Below, in pieces: positions 845 to 24,654 of a stretch of 34,158 nucleotides of DNA. The position numbers and the translations under genes were made by a program. The stretch is taken from contig NZ_JAINWI010000027.1 of the NCBI RefSeq assembly GCF_021021435.1, positions 1 to 34,158 on the forward strand. Direction: 5' to 3'. The DNA comes from Seohaeicola saemankumensis (lineage in GTDB: Bacteria; Pseudomonadota; Alphaproteobacteria; Rhodobacterales; Rhodobacteraceae). The notes below the pieces were generated by a model. The model was not told the DNA's origin, ran no database searches, and saw only the letters and a program-made list of their open reading frames with translations. Position 1 is the first letter of the stretch. Every line of letters begins with the position of its first letter.

Positions 845-2494
845 TCACTCAGCGCCTCTACGAGCATTTCCATCTGCAATCGAGATGATGCACCCGATCT
901 TCTTCATTTCGGTCGCCAGCGCTGGCAGCATGGCATCGCTCTTGCCATAGCCCTCAGAAGAATGACCCGTCACGCGTCCTGTGATGTACCGCTTGGCGCT
1001 TTCCTGCATCCCTGCCAACAGGGCCAAATCCTCGAATAGATGCCGCCATCCGTGGTTAGGGGCAAGCTCCTTGCGGTCCAGCTGCAAGTCGTTCCTGATC
1101 CATGATTGCAGGTTCTCGTTGGTCCTTACCGGAAACAGCCTTGTATCTTTGGGCAACCCGCTCTCACGCAGATAGGTGAGGAAGCCTTCTGCAACCACGT
1201 CTGGATGAACAGTTACGCGCCGAATGCTGCTCTGCACCTTGACCCGTTTTCCGCCCTTGGACGTGATCCGGTAGAACCAATGGCCACCATGCTGGAAGAA
1301 GTCGTTGATCGTCAGCTGCGCGATCTCACCGACACGGGCACCGGAGTAGGCCAAAAGCCAAGGCCCCCATCTCAGTTCTGGCTTCGTTTCCTTGCGGCTG
1401 GCCAGCAGTATCTTTCTCGCCTCATCAAGACGCAGCGTTCTGTCTTCGCTCCTGACGCTCTGGCCTTCTGGCGGCGTGACCTTGGCCACAGGGTTGCCGT
1501 TGGAATATAGTTCCCCAAGTGACTGTTTGATGGCCCACTCGATGATGGTCGACAGGTTCCCGATGCGTTGGCGTATCGTCGTGTTCGAGAGTTTACCGTC
1601 CTGCAGCATCGACACCATCCAAGCGTCGATCTCCTTCGGCGTTATGGTCGTTGCGTCAGCAGACCCGCGATGCTTGGAGAACTCTGCCGCCACCATCTTG
1701 AACTTGTTCACGGTCTTGGCAGGGAATGGCTTGGCGGCTGTTCCAAGTGACCTGCGCTGGACTTGTGCATCCACCACGTTGGAAAGGGTGAGTTTGGCAG
1801 GTTTGTGATGGGAGGTTGCCTTCTCCTGAGCCGTTTCAACGCTCGGTGGCTCGAACTTGGGGAACACGGCTGTGGTTCCACTGTCGCTATAATCACCTTC
1901 TGCCTTTTGCAGGTTGATCGTCGACGCTTTGTCCAACGCATTTGCGACCTGCTGAATCAGCCTCCACCGCGAATCTTCGTCGACGTGCAGTCCATGACGC
2001 CTGAGCAAAGCATCAGTAAAGCCGCCAAAGCGTTGCTCCATGCTATCCTTTGCGCTTGGCTGTGGGGTTCCAACCTTCAACTCGTCATATGGCCCTAATG
2101 TCGGCTTCTTGGCCCACTGATCCGCAACACGGACACCCTTCCACATCTCAGGTAGGCCGGGATTCTCATCAAGCACTTCGACGAATGTGCTGTACAGTTC
2201 GCCTGCAAGTGCCACGCACTGCTTGTGGCTCAACGTGATCGGGCCTTTCCTCAGGCTATCCCAGTGTCTCTCAATCGCAGGCAGTGCCTGTACAAGCCGC
2301 CTTTTCGCTTCGGCAGCTTCCTTGGTCCTGAGGGATACCTTGACTACAGTTCCGACTTTCGCGTGAACGATGGTATCGCCAACAGGGACAGCAACCGCCG
2401 TGCCTTTGGCTTTATCAGCGACATCCTTCGGAACGTGAAGGCGAAGGTAGTAGGTTGAGTTGATCAGTTCTGGGTTGGGCATAGCATATCTCAT
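845..2494 (-). CDS. Tyrosine-type site-specific recombinase/integrase
   Basis: This phage-type integrase would cut and rejoin DNA at attachment sites. In the numbering from the GTG at 2503, the catalytic set is complete: Arg390 in 'AYSGARVGEIAQL', Lys416 in 'TSKGGKRV', His484-x-x-Arg487 in 'NHGWRH', His514 in 'TGHSS', and the nucleophile Tyr519 in 'EGYGK'. The first 240 residues are a long N-terminal arm-binding part, residues 240-345 look like the SAM-like core-binding domain, and the catalytic domain follows. I prefer the ATG at 2494 because AGAGG is eight bases upstream; a GTG at 2503 and an ATG at 2482 are possible. It reads away from a degenerate tRNA-like site about 70 bases upstream, the usual arrangement for an island integrase next to its att site. 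It probably belongs to an element extending left of the window. Confidence 0.9.
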   Translation of the reverse strand: MRYAMPNPELINSTYYLRLHVPKDVADKAKGTAVAVPVGDTIVHAKVGTVVKVSLRTKEAAEAKRRLVQALPAIERHWDSLRKGPITLSHKQCVALAGELYSTFVEVLDENPGLPEMWKGVRVADQWAKKPTLGPYDELKVGTPQPSAKDSMEQRFGGFTDALLRRHGLHVDEDSRWRLIQQVANALDKASTINLQKAEGDYSDSGTTAVFPKFEPPSVETAQEKATSHHKPAKLTLSNVVDAQVQRRSLGTAAKPFPAKTVNKFKMVAAEFSKHRGSADATTITPKEIDAWMVSMLQDGKLSNTTIRQRIGNLSTIIEWAIKQSLGELYSNGNPVAKVTPPEGQSVRSEDRTLRLDEARKILLASRKETKPELRWGPWLLAYSGARVGEIAQLTINDFFQHGGHWFYRITSKGGKRVKVQSSIRRVTVHPDVVAEGFLTYLRESGLPKDTRLFPVRTNENLQSWIRNDLQLDRKELAPNHGWRHLFEDLALLAGMQESAKRYITGRVTGHSSEGYGKSDAMLPALATEMKKIGCIISIADGNARRGAE

Positions 2495-2572
2495 CTGCAC
2501 CACCTCTATGCACTAGTTGAGGCGACACAAATGAACAGATAACAAGAGTTTGAATGCAATCAATGGGTTGTG

Positions 2573-2696: not shown

Positions 2697-3104
2697 GTGA
2701 TGACGATATTCGATCATAAATTCAACGAAATAGCCGCTGGCAAGGTCAAACCAAAGCGAGAAGCTCCGTTCTCGTTGCGTCTGACCTTTGCCGAAAAAGC
2801 CGCCCTGCGTGATCTCGCAGGCGATATGCCCCTTGGTGCCTACATCAAGGCTGTCCTGCATGATGCGATTGCGAACAAGACGAAGATCGCGCCCAAGACT
2901 GACCCCGAAGCCTTGGGCCGTGTTCTGGGCCAGCTCGGCAAGAGCAAGCTGTCGCAAAACGTCAATCAACTTGCCAAGGCTGTGAATGTTGGCGCTTTGC
3001 CTGTCACGCCTGAGACGGAGGCCGAACTGCGCCAGGCCTGCGCGGACATCGCCGCCATGCGGGCTGAACTCATGCGCGCCCTCAAGGATGGGGGGCCGTC
3101 ATGA
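2697..3104 (+). CDS. mobC: MobC-like relaxosome accessory protein
   Basis: MobC proteins bind the origin of transfer and help the relaxase melt and nick it. The 135 residues show the family pattern: a basic N-terminus with a ribbon-helix-helix-like segment ('PFSLRLTFAEKAALRDLAG', residues about 24-43), and the MobC signature 'LGKSKLSQNVNQLAKAVN' at about 80-97, followed by a helical C-terminus. The start is GTG at 2697 or ATG at 2700; neither has a strong ribosome site. The stop overlaps the relaxase start by four bases (ATGA), so the two are translationally coupled. This gene order is typical of mobilizable plasmids and IMEs. Confidence 0.8.
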   Translation: MMTIFDHKFNEIAAGKVKPKREAPFSLRLTFAEKAALRDLAGDMPLGAYIKAVLHDAIANKTKIAPKTDPEALGRVLGQLGKSKLSQNVNQLAKAVNVGALPVTPETEAELRQACADIAAMRAELMRALKDGGPS

Positions 3105-4462
3105 TCCTCAAAGCCAAAGAACGTGGCAACGCTCCTCAGCTCGCCAAGTACCTCATGTCTATGAAGGATAACGAGCATGTCGAGCTGCACGATCTACGTG
3201 GCTTCGTCGGTGATGATCTGGATTCAGCCTTTGAAGAGGCTGAAGCACTGGCCAAAGGCACGAAGTGCCAAAAGCATCTCTTCTCGATCAGCCTGAACCC
3301 GCCCCAAGACCGGCAAGTGGATCGGCATGTCTTTGAAGCGGCCATCGACAAGATCGAGCGCAAACTTGATCTGACCGATCATCAACGCGCCATTGTCTTC
3401 CATGAAAAGGAAGGCAGACGCCATGCGCATGCTGTCTGGAGCCGCATCGACAGTGATGCGATGCGCGCCAAAAACATGGCCTTTTTCAAGCAAAAGCTGA
3501 TGGATGTATCGCGCGATATCTATCTGGAAAACGGATGGGACATGCCGAAGGGCATGCTTGATCGCTCCATGCGCAATCCGCTCAATTATTCCCATGAAGA
3601 ATGGCAACAGGCCAAACGCGCCAAGCAAGACCCGAAGCTGATCAAGGCGGCTATTCAGGACGCATGGAAGAACTCGGATAATGCCGAAGCCTTGAAGGCT
3701 GCGCTGGAAGAGAAAGGCTTCTTCCTTGCTAAAGGTGATCGACGGTCCGCCGTTGCCATTGATGTGCGCGGTGAAACCTTCTCACTTTCGCGCTGGTCGG
3801 GCGTGAAAGCAAAGGATGTTAGAGAGCGTCTGGGCAAGGATGCTGATCTGCCTAGCGTTGATCAGACCAAGGCGCAAATCGCCTCGCGCATGACGGACAA
3901 GCTAAAATCCTATCTGAATGACGTCGATGCTGGCTATCGTCGTGCCTCCCCAGCTGTGGAGATGAAGCGGCAAGAGCTGATCACGCGGCATCAGCAGCAA
4001 CGCGATGAGGCGAAAAAACGTATCCAGCTCCGCGAACAGCGCGAGATGGCAGAGCGTGCTGCCCGTTTGCCGAAGGGCTTTAGTGGCATCTGGTCTCGCC
4101 TGACGGGCAAGCTTTCACAGATCAAACAAGACAATGAATTTGAAGCGCTGCGGGCATGGCAACGCGACCGCGCCGAAAAGGATGCGCTCGTTCATCGCCA
4201 GCTTGATGAGCGCCAGCGTCTGCAAACCGCCATCAACAAGATGCGTGAAGACCGAGCGCGTGAAGTCAGTGAAATCCGCAAGGAGATTGCCGCCTATATC
4301 GCCATGAAGCGCGGCGATGTGCCGAGCCTTGATGCCGCGCACAAGGCGCGTGAAATCGCCGAGGACAAGGCACGCACTAAAACCCGCGATGACGGCCAAA
4401 GAGAGCGAATTCGCCGCGAGCGAACACGCGACCGGGGCTTTGATCGTGGACCTGAGTTTTAA
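3101..4462 (+). CDS. Relaxase/mobilization nuclease (MobA/VirD2-like)
   Basis: The protein would nick one strand at oriT and stay covalently bound to its 5' end during transfer. The metal-binding relaxase motif is visible at residues 101-110, 'HEKEGRRHAH', with three histidines in the H-E-K-x-x-R-x-H-x-H arrangement of MOBP/MOBQ relaxases. The preceding strand 'KHLFSISLNPPQ' (59-70) fits the fold core. I could not assign the catalytic tyrosine with certainty. Residues about 280-450 are highly charged and helical with many R, E and K, a likely coiled-coil tail for contacts with the coupling protein. At 453 residues it is a small relaxase without a helicase domain. It overlaps mobC by four bases. 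The coupling ATPase is encoded 16 kb away at 20694, and no mating-pore genes are present. Confidence 0.85.
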   Translation: MILKAKERGNAPQLAKYLMSMKDNEHVELHDLRGFVGDDLDSAFEEAEALAKGTKCQKHLFSISLNPPQDRQVDRHVFEAAIDKIERKLDLTDHQRAIVFHEKEGRRHAHAVWSRIDSDAMRAKNMAFFKQKLMDVSRDIYLENGWDMPKGMLDRSMRNPLNYSHEEWQQAKRAKQDPKLIKAAIQDAWKNSDNAEALKAALEEKGFFLAKGDRRSAVAIDVRGETFSLSRWSGVKAKDVRERLGKDADLPSVDQTKAQIASRMTDKLKSYLNDVDAGYRRASPAVEMKRQELITRHQQQRDEAKKRIQLREQREMAERAARLPKGFSGIWSRLTGKLSQIKQDNEFEALRAWQRDRAEKDALVHRQLDERQRLQTAINKMREDRAREVSEIRKEIAAYIAMKRGDVPSLDAAHKAREIAEDKARTKTRDDGQRERIRRERTRDRGFDRGPEF

Positions 4463-4713: not shown

Positions 4714-5940
4714 TTATACCTTTGAGATCGTCAGGGTTGGCAGCAAACCATCAATTGCCACCCTGACATCATCCAACATTGGCAAGGAGTCTTTTTCCTG
4801 TTCCCAGAGTTTCAGAAAGTCACTGGCTGCTTGGCGTGCCGTGTCCATCACCATCCTTTCGGGTAAGGCAGCTTTTGCTGCCAGATGTGAAAGCTCGTCT
4901 GCATTAAACTCAGCGAATTCTCGATTTCGGCTGTAGTTGAGCGCGAAACTATCTGAGGGAAGATAAGGCACGGTGGAGACAAAGTCATAAGCTGGTGCCA
5001 GTGCTGCACTTCGTCGATCTGGATAGATCAGTGACCAGTTCTTCAGGTGCATATCACCATTGCCGATCAGCGTGTTAAAGACCAGGCGGCGGATAAACTC
5101 GCGCACATCACCATCCGAGCTTTCAGAGGCTATGACTGCTGCAATATTGCGCATGCTGGCCTTCTTGTATTTGTTTTCACCATAAACACCAAATACTTGC
5201 GCAAAGTCCTCGATGTGAATGCGCTCTCCGTCAGGCGATCTATCAAAGCGCTCGATAACAAACGCTTTGCTACCGAAGCGTTCTGTTCCGTCTGGCAAAC
5301 CTGCAATGCTATCAATATCAACTAGATCGATTTTCGGTACATCCATATCCAGCATGCTGGCCAGCCGCATCATCGAGAACTCGTTCTCGGGTACGCCCAT
5401 GTACTCTCGCGATGGCAATTTAACGATCCAATCACCGCCGACCCCTGTGGCAGGTATCGTTAAGCCGCCGCTCGCACCTTCGATGGCGGAGAATTTCAAT
5501 TGAACCCCTGCGAGCGAAAAACGCATCATGTTGTCTTTGGACCGTGCCGCATTACCGCCATCTGTTTCTGCTGCTTCCGGCGGCCACTGTTCACCGTCGG
5601 CTGGTATAATAGTGATCGCTCCAGGAAGGTCTTGACCAAGCGCCCAGAGCAAGAAGAATTCACGCTCAATATTTACGCCTGCTTTCTCGGCCAGATATTT
5701 TCGCAAATGTCCTTCCGGTAAGAGGTTAGAGAAAAACGGCATGACCTGCTTTTGGACTGGCCGGAAGTCCGTGCGCAGTTCTCCAAACTCATCTTTAAAT
5801 GACAGGCCGAGCGTCGGGCGGTCTGGATCATTGATGTAGTCTTCATTGAACGCAAATAGGCTACGATCCCCTGCGACGCGCGTTAGTGTGCCTATCGGAT
5901 GGCCATAAAGCTGAACATTGAGAACGGAAACATCAGCCAT
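4714..5940 (-). CDS. hipA: HipA-family serine/threonine kinase toxin
   Basis: HipA kinases phosphorylate glutamyl-tRNA synthetase or similar targets and stop growth; the partner HipB neutralises them. In the 408-residue reading from 5940, residues 1-110 form the N-terminal subdomain with the 'FFSNLLPEGHLR' helix. 'RFSLAGVQLKFS' (140-151) matches the conserved S-x-A-G-x-Q-x-K segment, whose serine is autophosphorylated in E. coli HipA. 'NGDMHLKNWS' (294-303) carries the catalytic Asp296 and Asn301, and 'APAYDF' holds the metal-binding Asp319. All key residues are present, so it should be active. I prefer the start at 5940 because the 40 extra residues from 6060 lie inside hipB. It overlaps hipB by eight bases. 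Its gene is convergent with the small gene ending at 4699. Confidence 0.9.
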   Translation of the reverse strand: MADVSVLNVQLYGHPIGTLTRVAGDRSLFAFNEDYINDPDRPTLGLSFKDEFGELRTDFRPVQKQVMPFFSNLLPEGHLRKYLAEKAGVNIEREFFLLWALGQDLPGAITIIPADGEQWPPEAAETDGGNAARSKDNMMRFSLAGVQLKFSAIEGASGGLTIPATGVGGDWIVKLPSREYMGVPENEFSMMRLASMLDMDVPKIDLVDIDSIAGLPDGTERFGSKAFVIERFDRSPDGERIHIEDFAQVFGVYGENKYKKASMRNIAAVIASESSDGDVREFIRRLVFNTLIGNGDMHLKNWSLIYPDRRSAALAPAYDFVSTVPYLPSDSFALNYSRNREFAEFNADELSHLAAKAALPERMVMDTARQAASDFLKLWEQEKDSLPMLDDVRVAIDGLLPTLTISKV

Positions 5941-6532
5941 CACTATCCTCCTCGTCCAGACTATAGGCTGGTCTGCTTCGGGTTGGTTCGGCTTGGATTG
6001 CCGAGATGTTGTGAGCAAGCATGTTACGTAGCCGCTGCGCATCTTTGGCAACCTTCTCAAGCTGCTTCATGCCACCTGCATTTTCTATGGCCTCTAGTGC
6101 TTTTCGCATTTGCCGAACAGCATCAGTTTCCTGAAGAATGTTCCGGAAGTTGTTCATTTCAGCGAGTTGCTTTTGAAGCGTTTGTGCTGCCGTGCTCCCC
6201 TGTAGTGTCTCTGGCAAGGCAGCAAACGCACGATGTGCCTTTGTAAGCTCTCGCAGAGCATCTGAGTGGCCATGCGCATTGTGGCTGCTTGTGCTGCGTG
6301 CGATGGACCTGACAGCGGGCGCGGCCTTGCGCGGTATCAACGCAAGTTCCAGATCGAGCGCATGGGCAAGCGAAGCGAGGCTAGAGAGCCGAAGGTCAAC
6401 GGCATTACTTTCAATCTTTGAGATGTGCGACTGAGGCACGCCTGATCGCGCGCTAAGCTCTCTCTGGCTTAACCCCTTGTTTTCCCTGGCCTCCTTTAGT
6501 GTGGCCGCGATATCTTCACTTGCATAAGTCAT
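5933..6532 (-). CDS. hipB: HipB-like antitoxin, XRE-family repressor
   Basis: An XRE helix-turn-helix lies at about residues 8-62 ('LKEARENKGLSQRELSARSG', then 'VPQSHISKIESN'), matching Cro/CI-type repressors. The roughly 130-residue C-terminal extension is helical and much longer than E. coli HipB (88 residues), so it may carry the HipA-binding surface or oligomerise. The gene precedes and overlaps hipA, the normal antitoxin-first order. The upstream 135 bases hold several inverted repeats consistent with autorepression. An alternative label is a generic XRE regulator, but the hipA overlap makes the antitoxin role likely. Confidence 0.88.
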   Translation of the reverse strand: MTYASEDIAATLKEARENKGLSQRELSARSGVPQSHISKIESNAVDLRLSSLASLAHALDLELALIPRKAAPAVRSIARSTSSHNAHGHSDALRELTKAHRAFAALPETLQGSTAAQTLQKQLAEMNNFRNILQETDAVRQMRKALEAIENAGGMKQLEKVAKDAQRLRNMLAHNISAIQAEPTRSRPAYSLDEEDSDG

Positions 6533-8430: not shown

Positions 8431-9336
8431 TTATGCGACAGCTCCTTGCTTTTTTTCCTCAATCATAGGCTGACAGCCATGCAAGAAATCAGCAGCGCGC
8501 TGCGCATGGGCGGCGGCTGAAAAGATCGCCCGCTTGTCTTCTTTCAAAACCTTCAACCAGCTCTGAATATAGGCCGCGTGATCGGTGCGCACCTCCGGTG
8601 TCAATTCCAGATCAGCACATAGAAATGCTGCACCAAGTTCGGCAACAAGCTCTTCGCGGGCATAGCCTTCATCGCCCCATTTCTTGCGCCCAAATTCACG
8701 ATCAAGACGGCTGGTGTGCTTCGTCCAGTGCGTAAGCTCATGCGCAAGCGTGGCGTAGTATGCCTCAGGGCTGCGGAACGTCTCAAAGTGCGGCATTTGC
8801 ACATGATCACTGCCACCTGCGTAGTGAGCAGAGTTGCCGCCATGCCTGATGTCGGCGCGGGTGTGATTGAAAAATTCTTCCGCATGATAGATCTTTGATG
8901 CTGGGTCAATGATCGACTCGGGCTTGGTATAGTAATGCTCGGGCAAGCCTTCGATCTGATCGACATTGAAAACGCTATAGCCCTTCATGAACGGTATTTT
9001 CCGCTCTTCGTCCTGTCCGTTTTCGCCTTCCTCGGTCTTGGTGATGGTGTTGGCGTAAACAACCAGATTGCCGCGCTCACCCTTTTTGACATGTGCGCCC
9101 ATCTCTTTGGCTTGGCGGAATGTCATCCAATATGGTGACAGATAACCAGCCTCAACGCTCGCGCCCCACAGCATCAAAATATTGATCCCGTTATAGGGCA
9201 TGCCGTTATACCGTAGCGGCTTGGTGATCTTGCCTTCTAAATTGCCGCTGCTCCATGGCTTAAGCCAGCTGAGCTCGCCTTGCTCCAGATCAGCGATGAT
9301 CTTGTCTGTTACCTTCTGATAAATGTCCTTTTTCAT
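8431..9336 (-). CDS. ardC: ArdC-type antirestriction protein (ssDNA-binding domain plus zincin metallopeptidase-like domain)
   Basis: ArdC protects incoming single-stranded conjugated DNA from host restriction. Residues 1-125 match the N-terminal ssDNA-binding domain ('YQKVTDKIIADLEQGELSWLKPW', given here only as the family's opening pattern; also 'RYNGMPYNGINILMLW' and 'TFRQAKEMGAHVKKGERG'). The C-terminal zincin domain has the zinc motif 'HELTH' at 199-203 and the downstream glutamates of 'REELVAELGAAF' (E228/E229/E233). The length of 301 residues is normal. GAAGGGAAA lies just upstream of the ATG at 9336. In its mobilizable setting it most likely acts early after transfer. It is transcribed divergently from the giant STAND gene. 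Confidence 0.9.
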   Translation of the reverse strand: MKKDIYQKVTDKIIADLEQGELSWLKPWSSGNLEGKITKPLRYNGMPYNGINILMLWGASVEAGYLSPYWMTFRQAKEMGAHVKKGERGNLVVYANTITKTEEGENGQDEERKIPFMKGYSVFNVDQIEGLPEHYYTKPESIIDPASKIYHAEEFFNHTRADIRHGGNSAHYAGGSDHVQMPHFETFRSPEAYYATLAHELTHWTKHTSRLDREFGRKKWGDEGYAREELVAELGAAFLCADLELTPEVRTDHAAYIQSWLKVLKEDKRAIFSAAAHAQRAADFLHGCQPMIEEKKQGAVA

Positions 9337-9731
9337 TGGTCTTTTCCCTTCATTGGATAGTCAGTTGCGCATGCAACTGGACTAGGCCTGCGCCAATGAG
9401 CAGGGGGATGGCCGTCAATGATCCGCGAAGGCGCGAGGGGGATCACCCGCCCTGCACGAACGAAGAGAGGAAGGACGGGGATACGCGCCAAAGCGCGCCC
9501 CAAAGGGCGCTTGGGTCTTGATGGCCAGGGGCTGCAAGCCCCAAACAAAAGGGAAGAAGTGTCAGCCGTTCACGGCTGGCTAAAGATCGCGCAAGGGATG
9601 GAAGCCGGATGGCCGAGACCGACGAAGGCGGGCTCGGTTCACGACAGCCCGGTTCGCTAGGCTGCGCTTAAGCAAAGCGTGGACCATTGATACTAACCGC
9701 CAGCTCGCACCACATTATGTACTGGCACTGA
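9337..9731. ncRNA. Hairpin-rich intergenic region between ardC and the STAND gene (candidate structured RNA or leader)
   Basis: There is no convincing protein gene, but the hairpins are dense: CAGTTGC/GCAACTG at 9362-9379; GCGCCC-CAAA-GGGCGC at 9495-9510, with a longer bulged stem around it; GGGGCT-GCA-AGCCCC at 9528-9542; GTCAGCCG-TTCA-CGGCTGGC at 9561-9580 (one G-T pair); and CCGAG/CTCGG around 9613-9635. The spacing is regular and the loops short. This fits a folded RNA or single-stranded DNA structure. I have seen similar GC-rich blocks next to ardC genes in plasmids, but this was not checked. It could instead be the promoters of two divergent genes. Confidence 0.4.
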
Positions 9732-12700
9732 ATGGCATGCCAATATATTGTAAAATTGAGAATTTTTCGAAGAGTAAGAAACGCTGTGACAAAAGCCGGA
9801 AAAAGAATAGACAAAGTCAGAGTATCACGGGCCGGTCACACCTTTCACGAAAGGTGGGCGGCTCGGCGTGCGCTGCAACTCGTGTTTCCGAAAGACAACC
9901 TATTTGCAATTGTCGTCGAAGGCCTCTCTCCTAACGAGAACCTCAAACTCGGACAAGAAGCCGAGGATATTGCCGATCTTATCCTTTTTTATGGCAATGG
10001 TGACACCTTCGAGTCTTGCACCACGCAGCAGATTTTGCAGTTCAAATACAAGGAAGCTGCCGAACCAGTCACATCATCTTATCTCAAGAAAACTATAAAG
10101 AAATTTGCAGCAACACTTCGTGACTTCAAGGCGAGTGTTTCCGATGAAGTCATAGCGAAGAAGTTGTCATTCGGATTTGTCACAAATGCACAGTTTTCAA
10201 ATGAACTTTGGAACGCCATCGCCTGTTTGCAATTGGACGGCATACCCGAGACCAATAGCGCAAAGAGGCAAGTTCAATACCTTAAGACCTGGTGTTTGGA
10301 AGAGGAAATCGAAGCGGCCGACATTTTTCCATTAATTGAATTTCGTGCTGCTACAAATGATCTTCCGGCACAGAACCGATCTCTGCGAAGAACAGTCAGC
10401 GACTGGTCGGCGAACTCTACTGGACAGGCGGCAATAAGACTGTTCGCTCTTGTAGAGCTCGTCCGCGAGAAAATGCAAATTGAGGGTCAGGATAACAACT
10501 CTATCAAACGCGAAGATGTTCTTGATGCGCTTGAATGCGATGAGGACCTATTATTTCCAGCGGACACGCGGTTTGTGGATGTCGGTGACGTTGTCGAGCG
10601 AGCTGCACTGCAAAATATCAAAGATGAAATCGAAACTAGTGACCTTCCAGTATTTCTCCATGCTGACGGCGGGATCGGAAAGACCGTCTTCATACAAAGT
10701 CTTGCCGCACATCTAGCAGATAACTTCGAGGTCGTCGTTTTCGATTGCTTCGGCGGCGGCGCATATCGCTCCGAAGCCCAAGCACGCCATATGCCGAAAG
10801 TTGGCTTACTACAGATCATTAATGAACTAGCGACGCGCGGCCTTTGCGATCCACTCCTTCCAACTGACAGCGATCAATACGGTTTGATCGAAGTAGCCCG
10901 CAAGCGCCTCAAGCAAGCGAGCGAGACTGTCAAAAACCAGACTAAGATGCAGGGAATACTGGTTGTTTTGGACGCTGCAGACAATGCACAACTTGAAGCT
11001 GACGCGCGAAACGAAGCCGCCTTTCCGAGGCTGTTGCTTGCATCACTGAGTGCTGAACCCATTGACGGCGTGAAGATGTTGCTCACAGCACGCCCTCACA
11101 GGATGGATAGCGTGATCGGCAAGAGCCAAGTAGAGCGCATCGAGCTTGAGGCTTTCACTGCGGATGAAACTGGTCGTTTTCTTGAATCTAGGCGCGAGAA
11201 CATTAAAGATGTCGAATTTGCAAAGGTTCTTGCGCGTTCGCGTGGCAATGCTCGTGTCCTAGAGTATTTGGTCGAAAGCTGGGATGAGAATGTGTCCGGC
11301 AATGCACCGCAAACCGTAATATCGGTTGAGGAACTGATCGCACAGAAATGCGAAACAATATTCCGCGACCTACATACAGCGGGTTGGAGTGAAAATGAAG
11401 TTCGTGAATTTTTCGCCGCGCTATCGCTTCTTCCGCCGCCTATTCCATTGTCTGAACTGTCCGAGGCACTAGGCTGGACGGAATCGCAGGTCAATAGCGC
11501 CGCATCCGATCTTGCGCCGATGCTTGAGTTGGTTAAACATGGGGCGATTTTCCGCGACGAGCCCACTGAAACCTATATCAGGGATCAATATGCAAGCGAG
11601 TCCGTAGCGCAACAGGCCATCGCTCAAAGACTTCACTCGCGCCAAAAAGACTCGGTCTACGCTGCGGAGGCACTACCCCATTTTCTCGTCGTGATTGGTG
11701 ATAGCGACAGAGCATATCAGCTCGCAGATTCAGATGAGTTTCCGTCTGTCATCGAGTCGGAATATGGACGTCGTAGATTAAAACTTGCGCGCCTTTATGC
11801 GGCATTCTCGCTCGCGACGCGCGACAAAGATTTAGACCGTGTTTTAAGCCTGACGATGCGCCTCTCGCAGGTTGCCTCGGCTAATGCGAGAGGCGATCAA
11901 TTCATTCGACGCTCACCGGCACTGGCAACAATCCTTGGAGATTCAGATGCCTCTCGCCGATTGTTCAATGATCGTACCGGGTGGCGTGGTGCACGTAATA
12001 CGCGGCTCATAGTCACCTATAGCTTCTCTGACGACTTAGACGAAGCGCGCATACATCAAAACAGGGCGATTGGCTGGATAAACTGGTATCTCAATAGTGA
12101 TGATGAGACGAAACGTATCAACCGTTCAGGTTTCGAAGCATCCGACATAGCAGCGGTGATGTTTCTTAGTGTGGTGAGAAATGAGTTCTCGTCGATCAAT
12201 CGGAATATTCAGCTGTGGCGTTCCAAATTTGCACTTTCCGTCGTCAAAGAACTAATCACTCTGTGCGCACAGCACGAAGTGGCGATTGGAAGTAATGCTT
12301 TGCAAGTTCTCGCTAAGTTTGCAGCGTCGAAAAGGTGTCTATCACTTACATTGCAAATTGCCCTGCTATCTGGTGAACACGACCTAACAAAAGGCCAACT
12401 CAAGGCTATATCGCGAGCCGCAAGCTCGCTCGCGCAGAGATATAAGAAGAAATTCCCCGAAGACAAATCTGACTACGAGATGGAACTGCAGGGTGCTGTT
12501 GCCGCAGCCGCGATGGAATCTATCGTAGTGAATTCAAGGCAGTCCGCGAAGCGGCTGCTCAAGCTATATCGTCACCGCAGACCATCCAGCTACGACTATG
12601 GCGAGCGGCACGGCATGAACAGAGTTTGGATGCCTGTTCAATCAGCTTGCATCGCGGCGTGGTCATCCGGCGAACAACTATCCTTTCAGCATATGATGCC

Positions 12701-15700
12701 TGAGGAGGTGAAAACAGGACGGAAAACAAAACTAATAACCACGGAAACTGACTTTAGTACATTCCTTGATGGGCTCACCATGGCGGTAGATCAGTGCAAT
12801 GACCCAAAAGGTCGGAAGCCAAAGAAACGTAAGCGTTTTTCCCAGCATGAACAGGAAGATATTGTGAGGGGCACAGCCTGCGTCTTAGAGTTGGTTAAAC
12901 CAATTGAGGCTGCCGTCCTCTCAAAGGACGTTCTTTCAAACGATGTACTGACCACCTTCTTGGCTATCTGGAAAAATGCGCTGAGACCGGATGTGCATTG
13001 GAAGGCCGAAACCGGAAGAGATAATGTTGCGCGCCACGTCGGAATTGGTTTTGCTGGAATACTGCTTCGTCATAGCGAAACGATCGAGAGGAAAGTAGCG
13101 GAAGAACTCATAGAAATCGTCGATAAGAACCGGTTTTCTCTAGGTGACAAACTAGGGGTCCTCGTCCTTATCGCGAAGCGTAGCAATCTGGCCGATGTAG
13201 CAGGAGCTTACGCAAGCGCGATCTCCAGCGAGATAGTAAAAGATGATTACATCGAACAACGTGGTGAGTACTACCGAGATTTGGCTGGATCGTTGATCCC
13301 AATGAGTATTGATGAGGGGAAAGAGTATTATTCTCAAGGGTTGGCTCAACTTGATCAGATGGGAGGCGATGACTTCGAGTTGATTTACTCTGCCTTGCAC
13401 TATGCGGCTGAACAGCCAGGCGGGTTTGTTAAACCTGAGCTCTCGCACCGGCTAATGAACCTTTGCCAGACGATCTTTCAGCACGAACCCTCAAAGTTCG
13501 GCTGGACGCTATTCGGACGCGCCGCTTCTTCCTCCATCGGTTTTCCGGCAATGTACAAGCTGATGCGCTGGTACGATCAAGATGTTGTTGACTACTCCTA
13601 TGGAGTTCCCCAGCTTGCATGTTTCCTAACAAAGGCCGGCCAACTGGACCCACGCCGAGCTGCGGTTCTTCTCACAATCTGTGAGGATCATGGTTGGCAT
13701 GAGTGGCAGGTTGGCAAGGGTCTTCAAGACATTCTTGAAGTAGCCAAAAGCGGAGATCGAGAAGCGATTTTTGCCCTTGTGACAGAAAAACTTGATCGTG
13801 AACACAGTTTTGGTGGATGGGAAGGGCTTTGGGAAAGCCTGCTGAATTGTATGGATACCTTTAAGGAGATCAAAGAAGAGGACCAACGCAATCATTTTCA
13901 GGTACTACAGGAGGCTGCTAGGTCTCGGCGGAAGTTCAAGGGCTCCAGAAAGAATTACAGCGAAGCCATTGCTAGCGGCAGCTTGCAAGCACGTAGCAAG
14001 AAAAAAGATGAGCAGGCTGGTGAAGACGCCTTTGCAGCTATTCTTGCCGAGTGTGATCCAACGAGCGCATCCGACTTGGACGAAGCATTGCGACGCATTA
14101 AAGCTAGTGATGCCCTGCGCTTTGACAGTAGAAAACGCCTTTTCTGTGAGATACAGAAAACTTGCCCGTTTGATAAGCGGGTCAGTTTCCTAAGCGCTCT
14201 TTGTGAGTCCGCTGAGCTTGAGTTTGACGGCGTAATTGATCTGTTGATCGAATGTGTAGAGGTCTGGCGAGATAGCTCAGCACACGTGAAGCGTAGCGTA
14301 ACCGGGCTGATAACGAAGCTTTTCGCATTTAAGGGGTCAGAGTTATTTGAGCTTCGCTACTCGGGTATTTCTAGGCAAATCTACCGTTTGTCCGCACTAT
14401 GCAACGAACCGAAATTCGTGATGCAAACCGTCCTTGAAACGATAGCAAAGGAACGCCTTGAGCTTGGCGGCGACGAATGGCTGCAACTTGCGACAACTCT
14501 GTCCTGCCATACTGATCCATCGACGGCGTTAGAAGCATTCGAGAACTTGCTGTCTAGCTCAGCTGCGAAGGTTGGAGATGAGATCGGGGAAGGCGTGTAT
14601 CGCACCGCGTTTGCTGGAAATTTCGAAGAAAGCGATGTTATTGCTGACATTCTCTGGCATTTGCTTGGTGACAGCGATGCATTTGTCAGATGGAATGCGG
14701 CAAGAAGTATAAAGGGCATGCTCGATGTCGGATTGATCGAGGATGTGGAGCGCTTGCTTGATCGGTTTGATGTGGTCGAAAACCCATCACTGGTTTCCGA
14801 TGAGCATCATTTCGCCTTCCTGAATGCACAGCAATGGCTGTTGATGGGGTTGGCACGCGCCGCTCTCCACCACGGCGAGAGGCTCAAGCCGCTGCAGTCA
14901 CGAATTGCGGCTCTGTCCGAGCGAACTGATCTGCATGCCATCAACAAGTTTCATCTCGCCAGATGCATTGCACATATCGAAGGTGGCGACTCTATGGGCT
15001 CGGAACTCGCTGCATTGTGGGCTGAAATTAGAATACCTCAGCATGGCATTGTCGAACGCAATGGTTTGCCGAAACACGAGGAACGCCGAATAGATTTTGG
15101 CTTTGAATATGAATTTGATAAGTACAAAGTCGCCGATCTTGGACGCCTCTTTGGGATTTCGAAAAACGAAGCTAGCGATTACATTGCAGAAGAGGTGATT
15201 AAACGTTGGCCGCTAATGAAGAACATGTCCGACTTTCCAGGCAGAGTACGCTATCGGGGCGACGAGAGATTTGAAACTTATCCTGAACACATTCAGAAAC
15301 ATGCTCGCCTTTACGCCGCGACTTCGCTTATGAAGGCTATGCCGGTTGCAAGGTCAAGCTATGAGTGGGAGGGCCGAAACCCTTGGGACGAGTTTTTGAA
15401 AGAAGAGGACGTTTCTTTCGAAGATGGTTCATGGCTGTCGGATCACAAGGATAGAGTACCGGCACAGGCACGCGAAGCACTACTTGGCGAACGCCAAGGA
15501 AACCTAGAAACGCTTCTGGAAAGAGACGCGCTTTTTCGGATAGTTGGAATTCCTGTTCGCTCAAATGATCGGGCTTTTCCGCTCTACGGATATTGGACGT
15601 CGCCCGATGGGGTACACGTAAGCCTAAGCTCGGCGCTTGTTATGGAGCGCGGCGCAGTCGGAATTTGCACGAAGTTTTCGAAAATGCCTGATCATGATCT

Positions 15701-16217
15701 TTGGCTGCCTGGGTTCGATTCTTACGGGCGAGTGGATCGCTACTCCGAGCAAAGGCAGTTTTATCCTTTGATCTGGGAACCGGAGAAATACCCAATTGGC
15801 ATTGATGAACGTGACCAGTGGGCTGCACGGGGCGCAATGGCTCGTCCAAAGCTGGGGCGGTCTCTTAGCAAACTGCTAAATCTTACTTCAGATGATGATG
15901 AGCGTCGATGGTACGACGGCAAAGGAAAGCTCGCATTAACAAGCGAGGCTTGGGGTGAGTGGAGAATAGATTCTGATTCTCGTGGAAGCCGTTATCAAGA
16001 TGAGGGTGCTATTCTCTGGGCTGAGAGCGATTGGCTCGATGGAGCACTGGAAAATTGCAAACGAAGCGTCATCTTCAAGCTCAGTTTCTCGAAATACCAA
16101 TCCAGCAAGAGCTACGATGAATCGTCTGGTGTGAGGGAACGTTATATTGGTTTGAAGCGTAGCGCTCGGGATTTGCGAATTTGGTTTGCTAAGAAGGCGT
16201 CCGAAACCGTTTACTGA
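9732..16217 (+). CDS. Giant STAND NTPase with N-terminal Cap4/DUF4297-like nuclease domain (Avs-like antiphage protein)
   Basis: A 2161-residue single-chain protein. Residues about 35-210 resemble the DUF4297/Cap4 dsDNA endonuclease: 'GHTFHERWAARRALQL' (35-50), Glu63 in 'VVEGL', Asp82 in 'IADLILFYG', and the Q-x-K pair 103-105 in 'ILQFKY', a PD-(D/E)XK-type active site. Residues about 280-560 form a STAND NTPase: Walker A 'GGIGKT' (313-318), Walker B 'ILVVLDAAD' (409-417), and the sensor-like 'LLTARPHR' near 450-457. A winged-helix-like segment follows at about 560-640. The remaining 1500 residues are alpha-helical, TPR/HEAT-like, and would be the ligand sensor. Avs proteins bind phage proteins (terminase or portal), oligomerise and cut DNA; by architecture this is a relative, but its type is not assignable here. 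GTG at 9786 is a shorter possible start. It is the element's largest cargo gene. Confidence 0.8.
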   Translation: MACQYIVKLRIFRRVRNAVTKAGKRIDKVRVSRAGHTFHERWAARRALQLVFPKDNLFAIVVEGLSPNENLKLGQEAEDIADLILFYGNGDTFESCTTQQILQFKYKEAAEPVTSSYLKKTIKKFAATLRDFKASVSDEVIAKKLSFGFVTNAQFSNELWNAIACLQLDGIPETNSAKRQVQYLKTWCLEEEIEAADIFPLIEFRAATNDLPAQNRSLRRTVSDWSANSTGQAAIRLFALVELVREKMQIEGQDNNSIKREDVLDALECDEDLLFPADTRFVDVGDVVERAALQNIKDEIETSDLPVFLHADGGIGKTVFIQSLAAHLADNFEVVVFDCFGGGAYRSEAQARHMPKVGLLQIINELATRGLCDPLLPTDSDQYGLIEVARKRLKQASETVKNQTKMQGILVVLDAADNAQLEADARNEAAFPRLLLASLSAEPIDGVKMLLTARPHRMDSVIGKSQVERIELEAFTADETGRFLESRRENIKDVEFAKVLARSRGNARVLEYLVESWDENVSGNAPQTVISVEELIAQKCETIFRDLHTAGWSENEVREFFAALSLLPPPIPLSELSEALGWTESQVNSAASDLAPMLELVKHGAIFRDEPTETYIRDQYASESVAQQAIAQRLHSRQKDSVYAAEALPHFLVVIGDSDRAYQLADSDEFPSVIESEYGRRRLKLARLYAAFSLATRDKDLDRVLSLTMRLSQVASANARGDQFIRRSPALATILGDSDASRRLFNDRTGWRGARNTRLIVTYSFSDDLDEARIHQNRAIGWINWYLNSDDETKRINRSGFEASDIAAVMFLSVVRNEFSSINRNIQLWRSKFALSVVKELITLCAQHEVAIGSNALQVLAKFAASKRCLSLTLQIALLSGEHDLTKGQLKAISRAASSLAQRYKKKFPEDKSDYEMELQGAVAAAAMESIVVNSRQSAKRLLKLYRHRRPSSYDYGERHGMNRVWMPVQSACIAAWSSGEQLSFQHMMPEEVKTGRKTKLITTETDFSTFLDGLTMAVDQCNDPKGRKPKKRKRFSQHEQEDIVRGTACVLELVKPIEAAVLSKDVLSNDVLTTFLAIWKNALRPDVHWKAETGRDNVARHVGIGFAGILLRHSETIERKVAEELIEIVDKNRFSLGDKLGVLVLIAKRSNLADVAGAYASAISSEIVKDDYIEQRGEYYRDLAGSLIPMSIDEGKEYYSQGLAQLDQMGGDDFELIYSALHYAAEQPGGFVKPELSHRLMNLCQTIFQHEPSKFGWTLFGRAASSSIGFPAMYKLMRWYDQDVVDYSYGVPQLACFLTKAGQLDPRRAAVLLTICEDHGWHEWQVGKGLQDILEVAKSGDREAIFALVTEKLDREHSFGGWEGLWESLLNCMDTFKEIKEEDQRNHFQVLQEAARSRRKFKGSRKNYSEAIASGSLQARSKKKDEQAGEDAFAAILAECDPTSASDLDEALRRIKASDALRFDSRKRLFCEIQKTCPFDKRVSFLSALCESAELEFDGVIDLLIECVEVWRDSSAHVKRSVTGLITKLFAFKGSELFELRYSGISRQIYRLSALCNEPKFVMQTVLETIAKERLELGGDEWLQLATTLSCHTDPSTALEAFENLLSSSAAKVGDEIGEGVYRTAFAGNFEESDVIADILWHLLGDSDAFVRWNAARSIKGMLDVGLIEDVERLLDRFDVVENPSLVSDEHHFAFLNAQQWLLMGLARAALHHGERLKPLQSRIAALSERTDLHAINKFHLARCIAHIEGGDSMGSELAALWAEIRIPQHGIVERNGLPKHEERRIDFGFEYEFDKYKVADLGRLFGISKNEASDYIAEEVIKRWPLMKNMSDFPGRVRYRGDERFETYPEHIQKHARLYAATSLMKAMPVARSSYEWEGRNPWDEFLKEEDVSFEDGSWLSDHKDRVPAQAREALLGERQGNLETLLERDALFRIVGIPVRSNDRAFPLYGYWTSPDGVHVSLSSALVMERGAVGICTKFSKMPDHDLWLPGFDSYGRVDRYSEQRQFYPLIWEPEKYPIGIDERDQWAARGAMARPKLGRSLSKLLNLTSDDDERRWYDGKGKLALTSEAWGEWRIDSDSRGSRYQDEGAILWAESDWLDGALENCKRSVIFKLSFSKYQSSKSYDESSGVRERYIGLKRSARDLRIWFAKKASETVY

Positions 16218-17386: not shown

Positions 17387-17409
17387 AATTGAGCCTCCTT
17401 AATATTCAT

Positions 17410-20460: not shown

Positions 20461-20697
20461 ATGCTCGGACTCAACAAAGCACCGAAGAAGATCGAAGATA
20501 AGAAAGCATCGCGCAAACAGGATAGAATTTTCCTGTCTGGGGCCTTTATGGGGCTTATCGCCTTCGGTGCATTCTCGAATGGCGATTACCTCTTGATGCT
20601 GATCTTCGGCGGGCTCTCATTTGCGGCCTTCTATTCCGGCAGCAAGATCAAGACCCACTTCGAAGCCAAGGGTCAAACCACGCACTACGGAAAGTGA
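20461..20697 (+). CDS. Small membrane protein overlapping the coupling ATPase start
   Basis: A 78-residue protein with a basic N-terminus ('KAPKKIEDKKASRKQDR') followed by two hydrophobic segments ('IFLSGAFMGLIAFGAF' and 'YLLMLIFGGLSFAAFYSG'). A ribosome site (GAAAGGAAA) precedes ATG, and the stop overlaps the TraD GTG start (GTGA). Positive-inside topology would place both ends in the cytoplasm. It may help tether the ATPase; no family was recognised. Confidence 0.65.
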   Translation: MLGLNKAPKKIEDKKASRKQDRIFLSGAFMGLIAFGAFSNGDYLLMLIFGGLSFAAFYSGSKIKTHFEAKGQTTHYGK

Positions 20698-22403
20698 CCA
20701 AAAGGGCGGCTGCGTTCAATGCGTGGCCGTCCATCCTCCCCAGTTTTTTCAAACCAGAAAGCTCAACCATGCTTGCATCTGAACACCCATACGGCTCGGC
20801 GCGTTTCGCTTCTGATATGGAAGTGCGCCGGGCGTTCAGCAGCCAGGGCGGCGTGCCGTTTGGCTTTTATAATGGCCGCAAGCTCGTCCATTCCAAAAGC
20901 GCGGGCATGATCCTGATCGGCGGCGCTGGCTCCGGCAAGTTCACATCCGTGCTTGCCCATCTCATGAACACTGCTGCCCGTTTGGGTGAGCCGCAGCGCT
21001 ACGCAATCTTTGATCCCAAGCGCGAGCTGCGCGCTGTTCTGGAGCCGTACTTCGCGCGCATCAAGGCGGCTGTTTACGAGATCAATCCCTATGGCGTGCA
21101 CGGCGCGCGCGGAAACCGCCTGTCGCTTCTGGCGCATCTCACGCCGGACTCGCCCAGGCTGGTTGCAGATGGCAGGCGCGTAGCCCGTACCTTTATCCCT
21201 GAAAGCGAAGCTGGCCGTGATCAGTTCTTTGAGCAAAAGGCTCAAAACTGGCTGGATGCGATCATTCGCGGCGGTGTCCATCTGGATGGCGGTGTCTCGC
21301 CTGCATCGATTTACAAGCTGCTCGGCCTGATCCGCGCCGCGCCCGAGGCGTGGGATGAAGTGGCAGAGCTCATGGCCGCGATGGGCGAGCCTGATCTGGC
21401 TGTTACCTATGCCGAAATGCGCGAGATGCGCCTTGAGAGCGAGCGCACCTATCAATCTGTCATGGGCGAGCTATCCAATCGCCTGTCCTTCATGGCCGAC
21501 CGCGCCTTGCAGGACGCCTTTGTCTCCGGTTCTGAGGCTGAGTTCTCGCTGGATATTCTATGCGAAGACACGCGCCAGCCCGTGTTCGTGTTCTTCGTCA
21601 TGCCGCCGGAGTTGACCGAACAGAACGCGCCGCTGATCCGGCAGTTTTTTTCGAGCCTTCGCACCATCAAGCAGCAGCGCCCCAGCTCTCCAACGCTCAA
21701 TCTGGTGATTGATGAAGCAGCGCAGCTTGGGCGATTTCCCGAGATTGCCGATTTCTACTCCATCGGCAGAGGTTTTGGCCTGTGCCCGGTCACGGTCTAT
21801 CAGGACCTTGGCCAGATCAGAAAGAACCTTGGGCCAACGGGTGCGATGACGCTCTCGGCCAGCAGTGATCTGGAAGTCTATCTGGGCGGCGGTATTTCCG
21901 ATCTGGATACCGCGCGGCATTTGAGCGCCAAGCTTGGCAATCAGACCTTGTCCCTTGATGATCCGCTGACGCAGCAGCGCGCTGGCCGCGCCAAGCGCGA
22001 AGCCCTTCTGGCTGCGTTCCGTGGGCAGGCCGACCCGTACAAGACAGGTGCAGCCTTGCGCGCCCTTGATTACGAGATGGGCCATCAGCGCAAACAGGCC
22101 CGCCCCTTGCGCACGCCCGAAGAGATACTGGGCATGGCGCATGATCAGGCTTTGGTCATGCCATCTGGCTATGGCATCCCGCCCTTCATCGCGCAGAAGA
22201 GGCCGTATTTTGCGGTGAAGGAATACACAGGGCTCTATGGCCCGAACCCGTATTTTGACCGGGATATGGACAGCGTTTCCGTGCCCGGCTGGCCGTGGCG
22301 CAAGCGCCTGAAAATCATCCGCGAGGCCGTCCCATCCAGCCACGCGCATCTTCCGCAATACGCAGACGGCTCATGGTCGTTTGTGCAGGGACATCGTCCC
22401 TGA
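20694..22403 (+). CDS. traD: TraD/VirD4-like type IV coupling ATPase
   Basis: Coupling proteins deliver the relaxase-DNA complex to a type IV secretion channel. Walker A is 'GGAGSGKFT' (76-84), with phenylalanine where most family members have Ser/Thr, though a threonine follows. Walker B is 'LNLVIDEAAQLGRF' (335-348), and 'YGSARFAS' (33-40) is the typical TraG/VirD4 entry motif. At 569 residues it is complete except for the two N-terminal membrane helices of VirD4, which are absent. The two small membrane genes immediately upstream may replace them. GTG 20694 overlaps the previous stop; ATG 20769 is an alternative. The element has no mating-pore genes, so this ATPase would dock to a helper's apparatus. 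Confidence 0.88.
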   Translation: MTKRAAAFNAWPSILPSFFKPESSTMLASEHPYGSARFASDMEVRRAFSSQGGVPFGFYNGRKLVHSKSAGMILIGGAGSGKFTSVLAHLMNTAARLGEPQRYAIFDPKRELRAVLEPYFARIKAAVYEINPYGVHGARGNRLSLLAHLTPDSPRLVADGRRVARTFIPESEAGRDQFFEQKAQNWLDAIIRGGVHLDGGVSPASIYKLLGLIRAAPEAWDEVAELMAAMGEPDLAVTYAEMREMRLESERTYQSVMGELSNRLSFMADRALQDAFVSGSEAEFSLDILCEDTRQPVFVFFVMPPELTEQNAPLIRQFFSSLRTIKQQRPSSPTLNLVIDEAAQLGRFPEIADFYSIGRGFGLCPVTVYQDLGQIRKNLGPTGAMTLSASSDLEVYLGGGISDLDTARHLSAKLGNQTLSLDDPLTQQRAGRAKREALLAAFRGQADPYKTGAALRALDYEMGHQRKQARPLRTPEEILGMAHDQALVMPSGYGIPPFIAQKRPYFAVKEYTGLYGPNPYFDRDMDSVSVPGWPWRKRLKIIREAVPSSHAHLPQYADGSWSFVQGHRP

Positions 22404-23036: not shown

Positions 23037-24590
23037 ATGACAAAAGAACAACAAAATCAGGCTTTTGCCCCCGCTGCGCTGATCTATTGCCGCGTTTCTG
23101 ATCGCAAGCAAAAGACGCACGGCTCGGGCTTAGAGAGTCAGGAACAGCGTTGCCGCAAATATGCGAGCGAGCGTGGCTATGATGTGGAAATGGTCTTCCC
23201 CGATGATATTTAGGGCGGCGGCGATTTCATGAAACGTCCCGGCATGCGCGCCATGTTGGCTTATATGGAAGCCCAGAAAGGCAAAAACTATGTCGTCATC
23301 TTTGATGATCTGAAGCGCTTTGCGCGTGATACGCGCTTTCATCTGGAGCTGCGTAGCGAGCTTGCGAGCCGTGGGGCCACGCCGGAATGTCTGAATTTCA
23401 AATTCGAGGACTCACCTGAGGGCAAGTTCATCGAAACCATGATGGCGGCAACGGGCCAGCTGGAGCGCGAACAGAACCGCCGACAGGTGAAGCAGAAAAT
23501 GATGGCCCGCGTTGAGGCCGGATATTGGGTGTTCCGCGCTCCGGTAGGTTATAAGCACGTTCAGGCAAAGGGCGGCGGTGGCAAGGTACTCGTGCCCAAC
23601 GAGCCCCTTTCCTCTGTCGTTCGCGAAGCCCTAGAGGGCTATGCAAGTGGCCGTTTCGCCTCTCAGGCCGAAGTGCAGCGCTTCCTGGAGTCCAATCCGC
23701 ATTTCCCGAAAGACACCAAAGACGGGCGCATCCGCCCGATGACGATCACGCGCCTTCTCAAGAAGGTTGTCTATGCAGGCTATGTCGAAGCGCCAAAATG
23801 GGGCGTGTCTGTTCGCAAAGGCCAGCATGATGCGCTGATCAGCTTTGAGACGCACCAGCGCATTATCGACAACATCGAAGGCAAGAAGCGCGCTCCTGCG
23901 GCGCGCAAGGACTACAATGTGGACTTTCCGCTGCGCGGTTTTGTGGCCTGCAAGTGCTGTGGCAACGCCATGACTGGTGCATGGTCCAAGGGGTGCCGTA
24001 AGCATTATGCCTATTATCGCTGCGAGACACGGGGCTGCGATGCCAAGAGCAAGTCCGTGCCGCGTGCCAAGCTGGAAGCTGGATTTGAGGAGATCATGCA
24101 GCGCATGGCTCCGTCACGCGGCCTCATCGAGATCGCCGGGATGATGTTTCAGGACGCATGGGCTCTGAAAGAGCAAACCATGCGCGAAGAGCGAGCTGCC
24201 TGGAAGAGCCAGATAAAAACCATCGACAGCGAGATCGAAAACACGCTCGACAAGATCATTGAGGCCGAAAACAAATCTGTCATCCGCGCCTTCGAAAAGC
24301 GCATTGAAAAGCTGGAGCGGCAGAAAATCGTTCTCTCGGAGAAAGTCTCCGGTGTCTTGCCAGATAGGCATACCAAGAGCGAGTGTATGGAACTCTCGCT
24401 GAGTTTCCTGTCAAACCCTTGGAAAGTCTACAAAAATGGTGGTCATGCAGCGAAGCAAACTGTGCTGAGACTGGCATTTCAGGAGCCCCTCACATACTGC
24501 CCGAAAGAGGCGTATGGAACTCCGAAATTTTCCTTCCCATTCAAGGTGTTAGGGGAGATTACACGCGCAAAAAAGGAAATGGTGCTGTGA
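23037..24590 (+). pseudogene. Large serine recombinase interrupted by an in-frame amber codon
   Basis: The reading frame from ATG 23037 (AAAGGAGG six bases upstream) encodes a large serine recombinase: resolvase-type catalytic domain with nucleophile Ser21 in 'IYCRVS', then 'DDLKRFARDT', a recombinase domain, a zinc ribbon (Cys305, Cys308, Cys329, Cys334) and a coiled coil (around 'RMREERAAWKSQI'-like helices). Codon 59 is TAG (23211-23213), directly before 'GGGDF' where relatives usually have Ser or Thr ('DDxSGGGDF'); one C-to-A change from TCG would create it. A restart at 23229 lacks the catalytic serine. The last codons (GTG CTG TGA) lie inside tRNA-Thr. Without suppression the element cannot use this enzyme to excise. 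Confidence 0.85.
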
Positions 24591-24654
24591 GAGAGGATTG
24601 AACTCTCGACCTCTCCCTTACCAAGGGAGTGCTCTGCCACTGAGCTACCACAGC
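24580..24654 (-). tRNA. tRNA-Thr (anticodon GGT)
   Basis: A full cloverleaf reads on the minus strand: acceptor GCTGTGG with TCACAGC, D-arm TAGCTCAGTGGCAGAGCA, anticodon stem CTCCC/GGGAG with loop TTGGTAA (GGT), T-arm GAGAG-TTCAATC-CTCTC, and encoded CCA at 24580-24582. The element lies at its 3' end and the recombinase stop codon overlaps positions 24588-24590. This identifies the right border of the element. Confidence 0.95.

Follow-up and report, generated by a model that had tools for sequence, protein, structure and literature searches.

A divergent homologue of the phage sensor Avs3, with no Avs3b partner found, in a mobile island of Seohaeicola saemankumensis

A single long gene with a nuclease, an NTPase and a sensor region

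The window, by which we mean the whole 34,158-nucleotide stretch of Seohaeicola saemankumensis DNA analysed here (contig NZ_JAINWI010000027.1), contains in its list of open reading frames (ORFs) a stop-free frame of 2161 codons at 9732-16217 on the forward strand. Sequence comparison shows its product to be a broad-sense Avs3, distantly related to the phage sensor known by that name. An earlier reading made from the DNA letters without database searches (the sequence-only reading) had described this frame, its intact Walker motifs and a sensor arginine, and had named K105 and K317. These motifs are correct in its residue numbering, which counts from ATG 9732 and is kept throughout, as are two arginines (R454 and R457) and four residues of the nuclease (E63, D82, Q103 and K105). 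The gene probably starts at GTG 9786 (V19), which gives 2143 residues, because five of the nine close relatives with an intact frame (L012, L013, L014, L015 and L020) have their first start codon at the matching place, and a purine-rich stretch, AAGAGTAAG, precedes GTG 9786; judged by eye, nothing alike stands ahead of ATG 9732. The frame upstream, at 9418-9660, has no PADLOC or Pfam match. The features of the gene are:

9786..16217, + strand: one-gene Avs3 with Cap4-type nuclease, STAND NTPase and sensor (mechanical ORF from ATG 9732)
9813..10481, + strand: Cap4-type PD-(D/E)XK nuclease domain, residues ~28-250, with E63, D82, Q103 and K105 (profile against SeAvs3; conservation)
10596..11681, + strand: STAND/NACHT NTPase and following helical domains, residues ~289-650 (Pfam NACHT and NPHP3_N; model of the N-terminal half)
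10668..10685, + strand: Walker A GGIGKT, residues 313-318 (sequence; K317 in 33 of 33 homologues)
10962..10982, + strand: Walker B VVLDAAD, residues 411-417 (D414 and D417 in 33 of 33)
11682..16214, + strand: sensor region, residues ~651-2161 (profile of residues 980-2161 against SeAvs3)

Among 33 aligned homologues, the window protein included, D82, K105, K317, D414, D417, R454 and R457 are invariant, as are seven residues past position 760 (W1654, H1735, F1807, H1857, D1904, W2074 and G2092), and E63 and Q103 are the same in 32. Pfam NACHT matches residues 307-485 (E 2.7e-6; 27.8 bits, cut-off 26.7), which together with the conserved K317, D414 and D417 upholds the STAND NTPase with intact Walker A and B that had been proposed. 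Three pairs of close relatives give a ratio of nonsynonymous to synonymous change (dN/dS) of 0.17-0.28, a sign of purifying selection that indicates a maintained gene and not a chance frame; in three pairs that include the window gene it is 0.07-0.12, with synonymous sites near saturation, and these values therefore tell only of strong constraint.

Relationship to Avs3

The sequence-only reading could not assign the protein to a named type, but PADLOC, NCBIfam and PDB sequence searches all return Avs3a or SeAvs3 only. The sole PADLOC family at E≤1 is Avs3a (PDLC02167, E 1.9e-172), and the search against Avs profiles which that reading had proposed thus pointed to Avs3a alone; the sole NCBIfam family at E≤0.1 is likewise Avs3a (NF041816, E 2.2e-197), and the sole PDB match at E≤0.01 is SeAvs3 (8dgc, 2092 residues, E 1.8e-108), over residues 29-994 and 1165-2131 of the window protein. 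With 2143 residues from GTG 9786 against these 2092, the protein does not stand out as longer than the Avs proteins, as had been thought. A profile of the nuclease region matches SeAvs3 residues 7-235 (E 8.2e-35; the next PDB match has E 0.11), and one of residues 980-2161 matches SeAvs3 1055-2054, about 1000 residues (E 5.3e-41, with a single further match at E≤1, of E 0.5), bearing out both the Cap4-type nuclease and the long sensor of Avs design.

These comparisons point to an N-terminal nuclease of the Cap4/DUF4297 type with the catalytic D and QxK, a STAND NTPase with Walker A and B, and a sensor homologous to that of SeAvs3, which is the make-up of a broad-sense Avs3. The window protein resembles Avs3a and SeAvs3 in the order of these parts, in length, in homology along most of the protein and in identical catalytic residues; it differs from Avs3a in its low identity (~22% to the Klebsiella protein), in scoring under the NCBIfam cut-off and in that no avs3b was found. 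In 120-residue blocks, its identity to nine of the 13 Avs3b-linked proteins (the other four being a separate divergent set) reaches 33-35% in the best effector blocks (1-120, 241-360 and 361-480) and is 17-26% in the other blocks before residue 720.

The nuclease of CBASS, Cap4 (PF14130), has a related domain, as judged by Pfam, which weakly matches three of 15 nuclease domains from homologues (best E 0.0012) but not that of the window protein itself. Cap4 is activated by cyclic nucleotides via SAVED, whereas in the window protein a STAND module and a sensor follow the nuclease. Avs4 (8dgf) and Avs5 (9nc9) are also STAND proteins with defence roles in the case of Avs5, and both give weak fold matches to the model of the N-terminal half (E 4.7e-5 and 3.8e-4). 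Avs4 has no match to the window protein in PADLOC (E≤1), NCBIfam (E≤0.1) or PDB sequences (E≤0.01), and the effector of Avs5 is a Sir2 NADase according to PMC12931631, where the window protein has a nuclease-type domain instead.

Avs3b and a group of one-gene relatives

More informative, and beyond what the sequence-only reading could see, is that none of the proteins grouping with the window Avs3 has yielded an Avs3b. In Klebsiella and Janthinobacterium an annotated avs3b overlaps the end of avs3a. We searched for Avs3b (NF041817) in 37 genomes or records containing a homologue; 13 have it, two of them over the curated cut-off, and in 24 it was not found: the own genome, the 12 genomes of relatives with 67-74% identity, four plasmid records in which the plasmid alone was searched (Agrobacterium tumefaciens, 48%; Cupriavidus; Agrobacterium fabrum; Janthinobacterium HAMBI_1919), six further genomes (G389, G912, G806, G474, G248 and G644) and one virus record (L046). 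The A. tumefaciens member of the group is annotated just as a 'NACHT domain-containing protein'. In all 13 positive cases the end of avs3a extends into the avs3b frame, the overlap measuring 23 to 176 nt when mechanical starts are used, and in one (L034) avs3b is a shortened frame of 126 aa. A wider hidden Markov model (HMM) built from the 13 Avs3b proteins recovers the 13 on which it was trained and gives no match in any of 20 Avs3b-negative loci, the window included (best E 2.1). The two-gene arrangement of AVAST type 3, with avs3b adjoining or overlapping avs3a, was thus found neither in the window nor in the own genome.

In a tree of 33 proteins, one branch (SH-aLRT, an approximate likelihood ratio test, 100) sets 17 including the window protein, none with an Avs3b found, apart from 16 others, of which 13 have Avs3b and three have none detectable (G474, G248 and G644). 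Trees of residues 25-650 and 760-2161 taken separately give the same 17 (support 100/100, and 100% of 200 bootstrap trees), and the effector and sensor parts therefore appear to have descended together. These part-trees also served as a check, as the tree program had flagged long branches and uneven base composition among its warnings; the trees are unrooted and allow either loss of Avs3b in this group or its gain by others. Residues 996-1023 set the two kinds of protein apart, being present in at least 13 of 14 one-gene rows versus at most 2 of 10 Avs3b rows.

An initial tree of 24 rows had a single branch parting 14 proteins without Avs3b from 10 with it. Nine more homologues were added, three falling in the group without Avs3b (G389, G912 and L046), three outside it with Avs3b (G621, G897 and G852) and three outside it without (G474, G248 and G644), after which the Avs3b label needed two changes on the tree. 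Absence of Avs3b as the mark of one clade was dropped, since the last three sit beside carriers, and our claim is limited for this reason to the statement that Avs3b was not found in the 17-row group. Left out of the trees were two broken homologues (L016 and L018) and one cut by a contig end (L021), whose genomes were searched and gave no Avs3b, and G806, a 558-aa frame at a contig end with no Avs3b in its genome. Ten of 20 plasmid records were used, the others being H1 and H2, whose match carries annotated transposases, H12, which comes from the strain of H13, and H11, H14 and H16-H20, which match only in part.

Distribution of the relatives

With the window protein as query, homologues occur in 5 of 198 family genomes, in 4 of 385 at class level and in 7 of 398 at phylum level, the own genome being counted each time. 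The 12 loci of close relatives (67-74% identical) come from hosts in the Alphaproteobacteria, the Enterobacterales, Pseudohongiella and Desulfosediminicola, named more closely as Rhodobacteraceae, Hyphomonadaceae, Methylocystaceae, Ewingella, Citrobacter, Pseudohongiella, Pseudooceanicola, Gemmobacter, Paracoccus and Desulfosediminicola. Because such identity spans hosts so distant, the sequences suggest that the avs gene has moved horizontally, and a spread from Rhodobacteraceae to Citrobacter and Desulfosediminicola would suit the sensor of a protein that many phages share.

The frame is intact in the window and in 9 of the 12 close relatives, and L021 is merely cut by a contig end; the L018 homologue is broken by a frame disruption. 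We note that the avs3 homologue of Pseudooceanicola batsensis (L016) is interrupted by an insertion at 13686-14939 with two transposase-like frames, IS3-like by eye. A phage origin of the gene was considered and is unsupported, as the window protein has no match in 50,697 phage records (E≤1e-5); in IMG/VR, a non-exhaustive search with two short peptide patterns yielded one distant relative (28%).

Proposed action and competing explanations

We regard it as probable that the window gene encodes a divergent one-gene Avs3 that has no need of Avs3b, senses a conserved phage protein and degrades DNA. In an infected cell, this phage protein, most likely the terminase large subunit, would be bound by the C-terminal sensor. 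NTP-dependent oligomerisation, driven by the NTPase, would follow, and cleavage of both phage and host DNA by the N-terminal Cap4-type nuclease would abort the infection. The terminase trigger, the oligomerisation, the DNA degradation and the independence from a partner are carried over by analogy from SeAvs3, whose structure is titled 'Avs3 bound to phage PhiV-1 terminase' (PDB 8dgc). According to PMC12931631, Avs1-4 recognise terminase, portal or another phage protein and kill through a nuclease. Granted Avs3 membership, the terminase large subunit is a reasonably likely trigger, and it is the better first guess because the sensor half by itself is homologous to the SeAvs3 sensor.

Several observations weigh against this reading. 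The NF041816 score, 658.5 bits, lies far under the curated cut-off of 2800 bits for this equivalog model; the curated Avs3a cut-off misses what is a widespread branch. Past residue 720 the identity to the nine Avs3b-linked proteins is 10-22% per block, and the trigger may therefore differ from that of SeAvs3. AlphaFold2 models of residues 19-1000 and 980-2161, made with 11-row alignments of close relatives, are poor (mean predicted local distance difference test scores of 47.7 and 54.2), and fold matches drawn from them carry little weight. The structure prediction and fold search that the sequence-only reading had called for thus bore fruit in part: the low-confidence N-half model has Avs3 8dgc as its best match (E 5.5e-23), while 8dgc is absent among the 50 matches listed for the sensor model, which are generic helical-repeat proteins, and the sensor claim accordingly leans on the sequence profile given above. 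A long sensor stands, but its description as some 1500 residues of helical repeat does not hold to the end, the last ~300 residues being mixed helix and strand in the low-confidence model. As to the partner, absence of Avs3b is weaker evidence where the material is partial, since metagenome assembly is the source of 6 of the 12 close relatives, L046 is a virus record of 17 kb, and the plasmid and virus searches covered the record only. Avs3b also diverges fast, as just 2 of the 13 matches pass the NCBIfam cut-off, and a very diverged partner could be missed. Nor is its absence special to the 17-row group, as the three outside proteins beside Avs3b carriers also lack a detectable one; in two of these a 149-aa frame overlaps the avs3 end by ~136 nt (L062 9035-9484 and L063 9013-9462) that no Avs3b profile recognises and that is a possible diverged or replaced partner.

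The low identity past residue 720, set against 33-35% in the three best effector blocks, favours a change of trigger, as the sequence-only reading had suggested: architecture and effector would be kept, and the sensor would respond to some phage protein instead of the terminase large subunit. The clades of Avs5 do appear to be triggered by several distinct ligands (PMC12931631). The sensor half is, however, homologous to that of SeAvs3 over ~1000 residues with no rival PDB match below E 0.5, the effector and sensor trees agree on the group with no sign of a swapped sensor, and seven residues past 760 are invariant, and we think a different trigger unlikely. It is rather less probable still that the system remains two-component, with another gene, unlinked or too diverged to detect, in place of Avs3b. 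A partner role is plausible given that 13 of the 16 proteins outside the group have Avs3b, and 11 of the 17 tree-group members do have a same-strand frame of at least 100 aa starting within 800 nt downstream, which speaks against a one-gene arrangement; yet the other six (window, L011, L014, L019, L020 and L064, the last with just 292 nt of contig downstream of avs3) have none, and the downstream frames of nine of the 11 include none that recurs in more than three loci. An all-against-all comparison of frames (E≤1e-6, more than 40% of the query covered) among 17 one-gene loci (window, L010-L021, L023 and L025-L027, with flanks of unequal length) likewise found no neighbour gene common to more than three. 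That the protein is decaying, or has no part in defence, we consider very improbable: two of the 12 close relatives are broken, by the insertion and the frame disruption described above, but the other copies are intact apart from the one at a contig end, dN/dS is well under 1 and the catalytic residues are conserved.

Returning to the preferred one-gene Avs3, we offer more tentatively, as a possibility only, that the group is a self-sufficient lineage in which the role of Avs3b is unneeded or has been absorbed by the sensor, which mobile elements have moved across phyla and which may have another trigger. Nothing about what Avs3b does came up in a literature search of limited coverage of Avs work. 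Full-length Avs3 proteins that form a natural group with no Avs3b found make its role testable, as to whether Avs3b restrains, sensitises or merely accompanies Avs3a.

The island at tRNA-Thr

The avs gene lies among genes of mobilisation and recombination, next to a tRNA-Thr:

845..2503, - strand: tyrosine recombinase with DUF6538 (Pfam DUF6538 4.1e-10; Phage_integrase under cut-off)
2697..3104, + strand: NikA/MobC-like mobilisation accessory protein, weak (Pfam NikA-like E 0.0022, under cut-off; adjoins the relaxase)
3101..4462, + strand: MobA/VirD2-type relaxase (Pfam Relaxase 5.7e-14)
4714..6060, - strand: HipA-like toxin kinase (Pfam HipA_C 1.1e-49)
5933..6532, - strand: helix-turn-helix (HTH) protein, HipB-like by position (Pfam HTH_3 3.3e-13)
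8431..9336, - strand: ArdC-like antirestriction protein (Pfam ArdcN 1.1e-42, MPTase-PolyVal 1.3e-54)
20694..22403, + strand: VirD4/TraG-type coupling protein (Pfam T4SS-DNA_transf 5.8e-32)
23229..24590, + strand: serine recombinase ending at the island edge (Pfam Resolvase 1.9e-14, Zn_ribbon_recom 3.4e-9; Recombinase just under cut-off)
24579..24605, no strand: right attachment repeat at the tRNA-Thr 3' end (27-bp copy, 96%, in the own genome, G000, at C7:3797-3823)
24580..24654, - strand: tRNA-Thr(GGT), integration site (ARAGORN; congener similarity starts at 24579)

Relaxase, coupling protein, recombinases and attachment repeats are those of a mobilizable integrative element, as the sequence-only reading had held; no mating-pair apparatus of its own was seen among the frames scanned, which are part of those present, with an assembly gap between C7 and C20. 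That reading's view of the avs gene as the main cargo is fair by size and on no other ground. Similarity in the right flank starts at 24579, the tRNA-Thr 3' end, in five of six congener genomes (the sixth, G211, has just a 57-bp match), and a query with the whole window gives the same start in four of four congener stretches. A homologue of C7:8700-11900 shares a contig with the tRNA flank in G210, G215 and G213, where it lies on the island side, oriented as expected, at distances of ~10, 12 and 32 kb, and part of it lies ~2 kb from the flank in G212. Between C7:1-12000 and the tRNA-adjoining congener stretches the 27-bp repeat is the sole match, because those stretches end before this homologue or hold other DNA. 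We infer that contigs C7 and C20 flank one island of at least 28.4 kb (3,796 and 24,578 bases plus the assembly gap) at tRNA-Thr, within which a Fic-domain gene and a resolvase on C7 would also fall. Elsewhere, L015 has the relaxase and its neighbour in common with the window (~46-48%), and L021 the coupling protein (58%) and a further gene (44%); related elements therefore carry this avs gene in other hosts.

The HipA-like and HTH genes form a toxin-antitoxin-like pair (4714-6532, - strand) in the same island as the ArdC-like gene. Positions 17001-18000 are AT-rich, their GC of 0.39 comparing with 0.50 before and 0.46 after. Neither PADLOC nor Pfam recognises the small frames scanned within this segment, which is possibly a recent insertion. 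At 18447-19949 (- strand), a gene for a 124-aa ankyrin-repeat protein adjoins one for a 375-aa protein with no Pfam, NCBIfam or PADLOC match, a candidate pair within the island. Finally, G213 has at C2:32072-32121 a 50-bp exact copy of the 3' part of tRNA-Thr, ~19 kb from the intact tRNA, and a different island may use the same site in this congener.

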